A DNA stretch of 53,324 nt from a virus, in IMG/VR virus record IMGVR_UViG_3300017758_000012, positions 1 through 53,324 of that record, one strand, 5' to 3'. Below are positions 33,800-44,671 of this stretch, piece by piece. Within the stretch, counting starts at the first letter, position 1; every line of letters begins with the position of its first letter. The position numbers and the translations under genes were made by a program. The notes beneath the pieces are model-generated. The model was not told the DNA's origin, made no database searches, and saw nothing but the letters and a program-made list of their open reading frames with translations.

Positions 33800-33840
33800 A
33801 ATACTAATATATAAAAAATCCAAATTACCCCTAAAGGGAT

Positions 33841-34068
33841 CCACCACCACCGGGCTTATACGACTTGCCCTGTTAAATGCCGTTTAGCTAGGGTACCTCT
33901 TAGGCAGCCATTGCTAGTTCAACTTGTTCGCCAGTTATGCGTATGATCTTCATTATATCCTTACTTTATGTCAAATACCTGTACATCCCCGTATTTTATT
34001 GTTTATATTTAGTGGAGATGGTGGGAATCGAACCCACGTCCAAAAAAGCAGCTAATATAACTATAAAC
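33841..34068 (-). ncRNA. ssrA: Circularly permuted tmRNA (two-piece SsrA)
   Basis: On the minus strand the tRNA-like 3' part comes first: TTATATTAGC, then a T arm with stem GTGGG/CCCAC and 7-nt loop TTCGATT, then CATCTCC and discriminator A (34013). After a 22-nt spacer (34012-33991) comes the normal 5' end, GGGGATG (from 33990), whose 7 bases pair with CATCTCC to make the acceptor stem. It is followed by a D-arm-like GGTATTTGACA. ATATAA after it pairs with TTATAT of the acceptor piece (helix P2). The reading frame GGC GAA CAA ... GCC TAA (33932-33900) encodes the tag GEQVELAMAA. GC-rich hairpin/pseudoknot sequence follows, then CCCTTTAGGG and T6. The CCA is not encoded. It would rescue stalled ribosomes and tag nascent proteins. 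The exact ends are uncertain. Confidence 0.92.
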
Positions 34069-34074
34069 GATCAA

Positions 34075-34084
34075 ATATAAATAT
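34075..34084 (-). promoter_or_regulatory. Late-type element upstream of the tmRNA
   Basis: Coding-strand ATATTTATAT, about 15 nt upstream of the TTATATTAGC that begins the acceptor piece, and touching the stop codon of the 66-residue gene. It may be the tmRNA promoter, linking the RNA to late expression. One base differs from the consensus. Confidence 0.4.
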
Positions 34085-34284
34085 TATACATTCCAATCCT
34101 CCTCAGCAATTTGCAATGCTAAAAGGGGAGACATACTTCCATCTGATTTAGACATAGTTACTAAAGCATAATACATAACTTCAGTTAATTTTTGTTGTTT
34201 ATTTACTCTATCTAATATTTGAGATATTTCTATTATCTCATCACTCCCTACTTTATCTAAAAACTCTTCTTGAAATTTATCCAT
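34084..34284 (-). CDS. Small acidic hypothetical protein
   Basis: A 66-residue, mainly helical acidic protein (MDKFQEEFLDKVGSDEIIEI to ALQIAEEDWNV). It follows the oxygenase-like gene by 9 nt and its stop codon lies next to the tmRNA promoter element. No family is recognised. Confidence 0.65.
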   Translation of the reverse strand: MDKFQEEFLDKVGSDEIIEISQILDRVNKQQKLTEVMYYALVTMSKSDGSMSPLLALQIAEEDWNV

Positions 34285-37536: not shown

Positions 37537-38355
37537 TTAACAAGCAAATTCTAAAGCTTTTGCAAACATGTTTCTATTTAAATCAATATCTTGTTTGAAA
37601 TTCTTAATTATACGAGCTTGTCTTTGTTTTCCTGATTTAGTATTGTAATAAAAATTACCATTAATAATATTTTCTTGTACTCTATTAAATACTTCCCATA
37701 ATCCATTACCTCTATCTTCATTACGTTGAGATTCTAACACATCTTTAACTGCAACATCATTAAATGTATTATCTGTTCCTTTAACTCTAATATCAAGTAA
37801 TGATTTTGCTAATTCTAATACTTGCTCTCCTTCTAATTCAATAGATTTCATTTTATTCATAGATTCAACTGTTAATGGTAATTTTTCCACCATTTCTTTA
37901 ATCATTGATTGTAGATCCTCAAATGTGTAACCCATATGACGCATTTTTACATCTTCAAATTCTGTATCTGCAATAACTAAACCATTTTCACAAATCATTC
38001 TAAATAATCCTGCTGTAAATGTAAAAGCATTTTTACCATCATGAGAGTTTGTTAATAATATTTGTGGGAAAACAGTATCTCCATCTTCTCCATTAATAAC
38101 AATATCATTATTTCTAAATACTAGTAAGTGTTTTTGGAATCCTTTTGTTGATTTAGTTCTAGCTTTAACTTCTTTTGCATCAACAACTCCCCAACCTAAT
38201 TCTTCCATATCATTAATAACTTCTTCTGTTGGAATATGAGTATATTTATCTGATACCTCATTTGAAGGATTCATTGTAAATACTGAAGGAGCTACTTTAC
38301 TAATTTCTTCCTTACTCATAAATTTTGCTGATTGTAAATTTTCTATATTGATCAT
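37537..38355 (-). CDS. DUF932 phage/plasmid-like protein
   Basis: A 272-residue protein of the DUF932 (TIGR03299-type) family. The diagnostic middle is NSHDGKNAFTFTAGLFRMIC, then ENGLVIADTEFEDVKMRHMG, followed by a conserved helical segment (MIKEMVEKLP). Members are common in phages and plasmids and their function is not established. It has its own host-like promoter (38408-38438) and a terminator (37488-37522), so it forms a single-gene unit. The start is preceded by AAAAGTTATG, as in other accessory genes. Confidence 0.85.
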   Translation of the reverse strand: MINIENLQSAKFMSKEEISKVAPSVFTMNPSNEVSDKYTHIPTEEVINDMEELGWGVVDAKEVKARTKSTKGFQKHLLVFRNNDIVINGEDGDTVFPQILLTNSHDGKNAFTFTAGLFRMICENGLVIADTEFEDVKMRHMGYTFEDLQSMIKEMVEKLPLTVESMNKMKSIELEGEQVLELAKSLLDIRVKGTDNTFNDVAVKDVLESQRNEDRGNGLWEVFNRVQENIINGNFYYNTKSGKQRQARIIKNFKQDIDLNRNMFAKALEFAC

Positions 38356-39905: not shown

Positions 39906-39946
39906 ATTAAAAAAAATAATTTGGGGGTATGGAATTTTCCAAACCC
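39906..39946 (-). terminator. Intrinsic terminator at the edge of the gene-poor region
   Basis: On the minus strand GGGTTTGGAA-AA-TTCCATACCC forms a 10-bp stem with one mismatch, followed 8 nt later by T8. It lies 22 nt beyond the stop of the small membrane ORF at 39969, so it would end transcripts coming through the gene-poor region before the late gene at 39794. Confidence 0.6.
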
Positions 39947-39968: not shown

Positions 39969-40061
39969 TTAAAAGTGTAGCGCTAGAGAAAAAACCACCA
40001 CCATGAGTATAATATAAATGGCTGGTGCGATGTCAATTTTCTCTTTCATATTATTATTCAT
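39969..40061 (-). CDS. Possible 30-residue membrane peptide
   Basis: A 30-codon frame, MNNNMKEKIDIAPAIYIILM then VVVFSLALHF, with a charged start and one membrane segment (about residues 12-29). An in-frame upstream ATG at 40067 adds two residues. There is no ribosome-binding site. Support is the clear hydrophobic segment, the position upstream of a terminator, and two similar tiny membrane genes nearby (40985-41134 and 41366-41536). It could also be chance. Confidence 0.45.
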   Translation of the reverse strand: MNNNMKEKIDIAPAIYIILMVVVFSLALHF

Positions 40062-40177
40062 GGTCATATATAGATTAAGCTGGAATATTAAATGGTAAAG
40101 TAATTGTACTAGGGTGTTACTTGTATATGACTTAATGATGACGAAATTGGTTTACAAAAGTTTTCCAAGGAGGTGAT

Positions 40178-40282
40178 ATGATTATTGTTATTCCAGCGTG
40201 GGAGAAGAATGTTACGGTGAAGATTAATACCAACCACCGGTACCTTATATCAATATATACTCATCCGGTGACACTCTTATAA
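40178..40282 (+). CDS. Possible 34-residue plus-strand ORF with perfect Shine-Dalgarno
   Basis: ATG at 40178 is preceded, 2 nt away, by AAGGAGGTGAT, an 11-base exact complement of the bacterial 16S rRNA 3' end. The frame encodes MIIVIPAWEKNVTVKINTNH then RYLISIYTHPVTLL. Nothing else in the window is coded on the plus strand, and almost no other gene here uses a Shine-Dalgarno. The peptide has no family I know. Alternatively the sequence is part of a structured RNA or sequesters the anti-SD. Confidence 0.35.
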   Translation: MIIVIPAWEKNVTVKINTNHRYLISIYTHPVTLL

Positions 40283-40537
40283 AATCATCACTAAATTGAA
40301 TGTAGGGTTGGTCAATGATATAAGTATATACAATCGATGGGTTATCTACGTGTACGATCTCTTAAGTGGTCCACATCCTTTCTATCGCGTATCCACGCCA
40401 TATGGACATCCGCGCACGGTGGGTATTATTATATAGTACGGCGGCGGTACGCCCGCCAATGGTAGGTATGTAGTAGATATAGCGATAATAGTTGTATCGA
40501 ATCCAGTTACGCGTACGGTGAAGATATTATATAATAA

Positions 40538-40608
40538 GGTACCCCCAACCTTGGTATAAGGTGCTACCGCATTAACTAATAAGTATAAAATATGTAATAA
40601 GGGGGTAC
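40538..40608. repeat. Long-range inverted repeat with inner hairpin
   Basis: GTACCCCC at 40539-40546 is the exact inverse of GGGGGTAC at 40601-40608, with AATAAG/CTTATT-type extensions. Inside, ACCTT-GGTAT-AAGGT forms a second hairpin (40548-40562). In RNA or single-stranded DNA this would fold into an arm of about 70 nt. Confidence 0.55.
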
Positions 40609-40984
40609 GGTCAACTTACCCACCGTAGTATTATTCCCCACGGCTGGTATTATTACCACAACCGTTCACCCATAAATGTACGACCCCTCCCCCACATATC
40701 CACGCCCTCCCACACATACCTTGCGGTTCACAACCATTCACAATTAATTATTTATGAAAATTCGTGAACAGGGTTGGTTCACAAGTATATATTTGGTAAC
40801 TATAGTAGAGTTTGGATGCGCATCAAATGGGGGTTAACACCACCTCGCTTCTATGTCATATAACCCCATTATTCATTGTCACATGCAATTGATATTTATC
40901 ATCTACTTGTCATAATTGGTAGGTGCTTGTCCTACTTATGGATTTAGAAATGGAGCCCACGCAACACTCCACGTAGTTACCCGT

Positions 40985-41134
40985 TTATTCCAGTCTATTA
41001 CCCAATGAATTTCCATCTCTATCTACGTCATCGCTTAAATAAACTCCATAGATAATACACCCACACCCAATAATTGTCCAGTTCAAAATCAATGCACTTA
41101 TCCCAAGTAACATCCACATTAACCATTTATTCAT
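40985..41134 (-). CDS. Small membrane protein, 49 residues
   Basis: The frame starts MNKWLMWMLLGISALILNWT and continues IIGCGCIIYGVYLSDDVDRD to a TAA at 40985. It has one long hydrophobic stretch (residues 4-32) and a soluble acidic tail. The start lies 10 nt after the stop of the zinc-finger gene at 41145, as expected for an operon member. No ribosome-binding site is obvious, as usual here. The function is unknown. Confidence 0.6.
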   Translation of the reverse strand: MNKWLMWMLLGISALILNWTIIGCGCIIYGVYLSDDVDRDGNSLGNRLE

Positions 41135-41144
41135 ATCATTATCA

Positions 41145-41369
41145 TTATTTAATTTTATCAATTATCCACTCGGGGAAGGTCCACTTCTTAGCGATGCGAT
41201 GTACCTTTATTCCCCAATGCTCAAGTGAAAGTATTTTAGTTAAACACGGCTCACATATGATATTTTTACCTGATCCCTCTTTCTTCACCGTAATCTCTAT
41301 CCACGCTGAATTTACTTCATCACACACATTACATCTCCTCTTCCACTTGACTTCCCTTATTCGTTTCAT
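41145..41369 (-). CDS. Small zinc-finger protein
   Basis: A 74-residue basic protein with two CxxC pairs (C13/C16 in RRCNVCDE and C39/C42 in IICEPCLT), making a treble-clef or ribbon-like zinc site. The C-terminal half is Trp/Lys-rich and helical (KKWTFPEWIIDKIK). It overlaps the stop of the 56-residue gene upstream by 4 nt (ATGA), so the two are coupled. A DNA- or RNA-binding regulator is possible; no family is recognised. Confidence 0.75.
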   Translation of the reverse strand: MKRIREVKWKRRCNVCDEVNSAWIEITVKKEGSGKNIICEPCLTKILSLEHWGIKVHRIAKKWTFPEWIIDKIK

Positions 41370-44158: not shown

Positions 44159-44671
44159 TTATTTTTTATTTATATATAATTTATTATTTCTAATATACAT
44201 TTTACCTACTGGAATTTCAGTTAATTCTCTACCTAGTAAATCATATATTTTATTATTATTAATTTTATTTAATATTAATTCATTTATTAATGTTGTACCT
44301 CCCATATTAAATAATACATAAGTACTATCAGTATAATCAAATATTAATGAATCACAGTGACTACATACTACCATTTGATTAGGAGTATAAACATAAGCAT
44401 CATAACAAAATTTAACTGTGTCAGTCATATTTATTTGAGGAAAAGAATATGGATTATTACCTTGTGGTGTATAACATGCTACTGAATTACACGCTGAAAA
44501 TAGCCATTCAATTGAATCTACCATATTTATAATTCCACTTGCTTCTCCATATACTGTTAAAGGTAAACCTTGTATTACAGTATACGACAATGAGTCACAT
44601 AAATTTGATTGTGCTTGTGTTTGTGTTTGTAGTCCAAGCGAAACTAATAATACTAATAATATTTTTTTCAT
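44159..44671 (-). CDS. Secreted protein with T9SS-type C-terminal signal
   Basis: A 170-residue protein with a signal peptide (MKKILLVLLVSLGLQTQTQA, cleavage near AQA|QS) and a C-terminal domain ending KIYDLLGRELTEIPVGKMYI then RNNKLYINKK. The Y-D-L-L-G-R-x-x-x-x-I-P-x-G-x-x-Y-I ... K-K layout is that of type A sorting signals of the Bacteroidota type IX secretion system (TIGR04183-like). The mature part has paired cysteines (CNSVAC, CYDA, CSHC) and beta structure resembling T9SS surface adhesins. The phage would use the host T9SS to place it on or outside the cell. The host-derived gene is probably a moron. Confidence 0.82.
   Translation of the reverse strand: MKKILLVLLVSLGLQTQTQAQSNLCDSLSYTVIQGLPLTVYGEASGIINMVDSIEWLFSACNSVACYTPQGNNPYSFPQINMTDTVKFCYDAYVYTPNQMVVCSHCDSLIFDYTDSTYVLFNMGGTTLINELILNKINNNKIYDLLGRELTEIPVGKMYIRNNKLYINKK

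Follow-up and report, generated by a model that had tools for sequence, protein, structure and literature searches.

The window analysed here, a stretch of 53,324 nucleotides of viral DNA (IMG/VR record IMGVR_UViG_3300017758_000012), carries T4-like baseplate genes and Bacteroidetes features, and its closest named relative, as judged by a baseplate protein, is the Flavobacterium phage immuto (45% identity). A permuted, two-piece tmRNA is found on the minus strand at 33809-34104 (Rfam RF04321, 67.5 bits; ARAGORN tag GEQVELAMAA), and a secreted-looking protein of 170 amino acids (44159-44671, minus strand) has a C-terminal motif resembling the type IX secretion sorting domain, which by its sequence points to a Bacteroidetes host. 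In the related contig G001 (about 164 kb) nearly all genes lie on one strand, and the two contig ends are near-identical (126 of 130 bases).

A GC-richer noncoding island

Positions 40062-40984 have a GC content of 0.398, compared with 0.283 for the whole window; only 5 of 1049 sliding windows of 923 nt are as GC-rich, and the maximum, beginning at 40201, falls in the same place. The GC skew is about zero inside the island and clearly negative to either side. The initial annotation, which had described a GC-richer, gene-poor and repeat-filled island, was thus right about composition, and also about coding content once the left edge is corrected for a small open reading frame (ORF) that overlaps it (Table 1); the island is otherwise noncoding. 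This ORF, whose sequence includes PAIYIILMVVVFSLAL, has clear counterparts in two relatives (L083 and L139) and is probably a real micro-gene. Among relatives, open frames run through the 242-nt 3' block of the island in 4 of 39 x 6 cases, and the GC content of this block exceeds that of its own locus in all 39.

With respect to repeats the earlier description holds in part. Exact direct repeats of 9 nt are in mild excess in the island (13 versus 4.5 in dinucleotide shuffles, p = 0.015), whereas inverted repeats do not differ significantly from such shuffles (p = 0.06-0.48, depending on length). The meaningful repeats are degenerate and become clear only when relatives are pooled. It had also been considered that relatives might lack the island, or that it might be a recombination scar or a misassembly; relatives do carry it, and contig L002 is 99.9% identical across the whole region.

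Conserved blocks and phased direct repeats

Using the DUF932 gene as query we collected 80 loci. A conserved core was present in 18 of the 20 loci with at least 2.5 kb of upstream sequence, always on the strand of DUF932 and, in core-bearing loci, 0.4-6.5 kb before it. The element occurs in a single copy per genome, and in three contigs of about 164 kb each (G001-G003) it sits at differing, unrelated positions. Fifty distinct 3' cores could be aligned, and a pattern scan for the AT-rich end recovered 45 viral stretches; the element is a feature of many marine T4-like phages of Bacteroidetes. A DNA similarity search against named phages gave no match, nor did a profile search for the element in immuto and Microcystis phage Mel-JY01. 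One scan of bacterial genomes yielded two weak partial matches, in Metabacillus and in a Flavobacteriales metagenome-assembled genome (MAG), whose matching contig may be a phage.

Table 1. Features in and around the island (coordinates of the window)
Feature	Position	Strand	Basis or remark
DUF932 gene	37537-38355	-	Constant neighbour downstream of the element (18/20 loci); Pfam PF06067, E 2e-34
Inverted repeat followed by T-run (terminator-like or AT-rich tract)	39909-39946	-	Upstream of a 142-aa gene; from sequence
32-aa hydrophobic ORF	39969-40067	-	Overlaps left end of island; hydrophobic sequence recurs in relatives
Second conserved (3') block	~40308-40556	-	Last 110 nt conserved best
3' core, ~110 nt, best-conserved part	40316-40428	-	50 cores aligned; profile match in window at 40318-40426
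Nearly invariant AT-rich end ATCGATTGTATATACTTATAT	40318-40338	-	Pattern found in 45 viral stretches
Degenerate TAC-rich array, 11-bp period, pooled consensus ATACTTACTTA	40427-40556	-	Precedes 3' core
Degenerate promoter-like GTCGTACATTTA	40673-40684	-	2 mismatches to phage promoter motif TTCGTATATTTA; motif comparison
Two inverted copies TTCACAA (40727-40733, 40737-40743), 10-nt spacing	40727-40743	+	From sequence
Two direct TTCRYRA (TTCACGA 40762-40768, TTCATAA 40752-40758), 10-nt spacing	40752-40768	-
5' conserved block, ~140 nt, TTAACC..CCAACC....TATATACTTGTGAAC	40746-40885	-	nhmmer profile matches upstream of core in 28 relatives
58-aa ORF	40985-41161	-	Abuts right end of island

Two conserved blocks make up the element, both of which terminate in TATATAC and which in relatives are separated by 287-1904 nt. 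In many relatives early genes or promoter motifs are inserted between them, among these a 166-aa protein (phrog_3754; 5617-6117 of L130) that the G001 group has at this place. L111 has a RecA-fold ATPase there. The latter resembles a DnaB/RecA-fold ATPase encoded at 8-808 of L130, which corresponds to 60008-60808 of G001 (PHROG 19, E 3e-13 in G001), where it lies 5 kb upstream; a role of this ATPase as helicase loader or initiator is possible. An exact copy of the phage promoter motif TTCGTATATTTA is found between the blocks in many relatives, and copies with up to two mismatches in 21 of 28. Three relatives (L013, L069, L014) lack both promoter and ORF and have kept both blocks and the core, and the same is seen in the window, where inter-block promoter and genes are missing. 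Judging from these loci, the promoter-like motif is not an obligatory part of the element. The motif itself is repeated in intergenic regions of G001, often with TTTGG upstream, and resembles Bacteroidetes -33/-7 promoters; TTCGTATA occurs in 23 of 71 G001 intergenic stretches, with 25 copies genome-wide. We also considered TATATAC as a general promoter and rejected it, TATATACTTATAT occurring exactly once in the window. T-rich tracts lie 3' of the core in several relatives too, and in L026, L081 and L061 a terminator-like stem with a T-run follows the core within about 40 nt.

Short direct repeats accompany both blocks. Copies of TTCAYAA follow the 5' block at a spacing of 10 nt (at -29/-19/-9 in L139 and L083 and at -21/-11/-1 in L023), and the pooled autocorrelation of 28 relatives peaks at lags 10 and 20. 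In the array preceding the 3' core, the information at period 11 was 0.139, versus 0.035 in shuffled sequences, when 31 relatives were pooled, a figure that, like all pooled repeat figures given here, overstates independence as the relatives share ancestry; the other periods tested (7, 9, 10, 12 and 13) did not exceed 0.05. Distances between TAC triplets peak at 4, 7, 11, 15, 18, 22, 26, 29 and 33 nt, and the apparent TAC period of 3.67 nt was discarded, since each 11-bp unit holds two or three TACs. Pooled relatives show short direct repeats at helical spacing (10 nt and 11 bp), which are weak in the window alone, where the lag-11 z is just 2.3; lag-11 tests of single sequences were mixed (mean z 1.4), and the array was outside the top repeat sites of both the window and G001 in a repeat-site scan.

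Because its sequence is conserved and single-copy, its strand and neighbourhood are constant, and its direct repeats are helically spaced, the island is, on the evidence of sequence comparison, a real conserved cis-acting DNA element and not a scar. Of the functions suggested initially (origin, packaging or transcription-control site, or long structured RNA), a cis-acting DNA site was upheld and the structured RNA was not; among the DNA options an origin appears best supported, a preference resting on anatomy and comparison.

A putative replication origin and rival explanations

On balance we consider the element to be probably, by a modest degree, a cis-acting, protein-nucleated replication origin, present once in the genome of a T4-like phage of Bacteroidetes. 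A phage-encoded protein would assemble on the phased repeats and distort or open the AT-rich end, at which the T4-type helicase and primase could then be loaded; promoter and early genes found between the blocks in many relatives would be insertions and not part of the core device. This reading is favoured by noncoding blocks with repeats of about one helical turn ending in AT-rich sequence, in genomes whose genes run nearly all in one direction. It is further favoured by the constant strand and neighbourhood of a single conserved copy, by the retention of blocks and core in relatives that lack promoter and ORF, and by the iterons of immuto and of T4 oriE (see below). Strand bias lends weak support. 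In marine contigs covering both sides of the element (least clearly in G007), the GC skew at four-fold sites is positive just upstream of it and, beginning about 5 kb past it, negative, and in a 164-kb genome with the element at 66 kb the largest skew discontinuity lies at 65-72 kb (with 12- and 20-kb flanks), the order of skew along this genome being nonrandom (p = 0.007). However, the sign of the switch is opposite to that usual at a bidirectional origin, the switch coincides with a change toward late genes, so that gene class is a confounding factor, and in immuto the skew jump is found 7 kb away.

Also against an origin stand the weak 11-bp array in the window, the absence of shared sequence in the corresponding gap of immuto (see below), and the searches for known initiator families. 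In six genomes no Rep_3 initiator exceeded the cut-off and DnaA gave one match, below cut-off; a search for ParB likewise yielded nothing over cut-off. No neighbour other than DUF932 proved constant, and the DUF932 protein is a possible partner of the element; its comparison with solved structures revealed no convincing relative. Since origin activity and initiator are predictions, we treat the element as a candidate member of the iteron-origin family; alternatively, it might be a protein-assembly site of another kind.

The main rival, which we regard as unlikely but worth serious attention, is an operator or enhancer array at which a phage regulator would bind the phased repeats and switch transcription from early to late genes. 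The element does lie between early or accessory genes and late structural genes, TATATAC ends both blocks, and TTCGTATATTTA, so often present between them, is enriched before G001 genes. On the other hand, blocks are kept where this promoter is missing (L013, L069, L014), the terminator-like stems of L026, L081 and L061 follow the core within about 40 nt, and the uniqueness of TATATACTTATAT in the window speaks against a general promoter. A packaging (pac) or recombination site would agree with a single, repeat-bearing copy, but is improbable: in G001 some 48 kb separate the element from the presumed terminase gene, whereas a pac site would be looked for close to the terminase genes, its positions in G001, G002 and G003 are unrelated, and none of six genomes contains an integrase.

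Slightly more improbable still is a long structured noncoding RNA transcribed from the minus strand and comparable to GOLLD, ROOL or OLE, although length, GC-richness, the strand shared with the genes and terminator-like tails in some relatives would suit such an RNA. As the initial annotation had noted for standard RNA families, Rfam searches at gathering threshold found no family for the element, and at E <= 10 there were two snoRNA matches, attributable to chance. Folding energies compared with shuffles on both strands of 22 relatives gave mean z values near zero (-0.18 and +0.19 for the core, -0.37 and -0.10 for the 5' block), and RNAalifold predicted almost no structure for the 5' block. 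Measured against a null of 60 alignments simulated on the tree, which covers the 3' core and 5' block and depends on the alignment, no covarying pair of the core reached E <= 1, and no pair of the 5' block combined E <= 1 with at least 80% canonical pairing. Neither a covariance-model match to the large structured phage RNAs nor a covarying conserved structure was thus found, and genes can separate the two blocks; on folding, RNAalifold, covariation and Rfam together we rejected a structured RNA. Least probable of all is a centromere-like partition site such as parC of the plasmid system ParMRC, in which a promoter is likewise flanked by two sets of short direct repeats. Neither ParB, ParM nor ParR was found (the ParM/StbA search being uninformative, as it was silent in every control genome as well), and no need for partition is expected in T4-type phages that lack an integrase.

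Comparison with known systems

Considered as an origin, the element can be compared with three systems. The origin of the Vibrio cholerae satellite PLE is a noncoding iteron region required for replication (PMC7145576), and in this it is similar to the element. Its iterons are semi-palindromic, about 30 bp long and bound by a RepA_N initiator (PMC8263062), whereas no such initiator was identified for the element.

Flavobacterium phage immuto (NC_055915), isolated on Flavobacterium sp. LMO8, shares with the element-bearing phages the genome layout, a nearby DUF932 gene and a noncoding, GC-richer gap with short phased repeats. This gap (66275-66930, 2.3 kb past DUF932; GC 0.38 versus 0.33 around it) contains ACCCGT at 12-nt spacing, with 13 of the 18 copies in the 160-kb genome, in two arrays flanking about 300 nt. 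It differs from the element in its 12-bp ACCCGT units, as opposed to TAC-rich 11-bp and TTCAYAA 10-bp units, in lacking detectable sequence similarity and in its location on the opposite side of DUF932. Because the profiles miss this gap and its position relative to DUF932 is reversed, we regard the likeness as an analogy of neighbourhood and design that does not imply homology. The NC_055915 record carries no origin annotation for the gap, and neither immuto nor any origin is mentioned in a study of Flavobacterium phages from the Baltic (PMC7077304).

T4 itself has 12-nt iterons at oriE, whose role is described as ill defined and which occur also in syntenic regions of close T4 relatives, and compositional shifts are found near several T4 origins (PMC3016281). 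Our repeat scan recovered the oriE iterons as a control. The element resembles oriE in its evenly spaced direct repeats, and its phages have a T4-like replication gene set. The T4 repeats, however, lie in coding sequence of the gene 5/oriE region beside repEA/repEB, whereas the element is noncoding, has two additional conserved blocks and combines 10- and 11-bp registers. It is a rather unlikely extension that this marine T4-like clade might use one dedicated origin, in contrast to the several transcription-primed origins of T4, and fire it with an initiator not described before, for which the DUF932 protein would be a possible candidate; the element would also provide a lead to the function of DUF932. 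As a noncoding, single-copy element conserved in sequence across a broad group of marine phages, it makes the question of protein-nucleated origins in T4-like phages, together with the isolate immuto, open to practical study.
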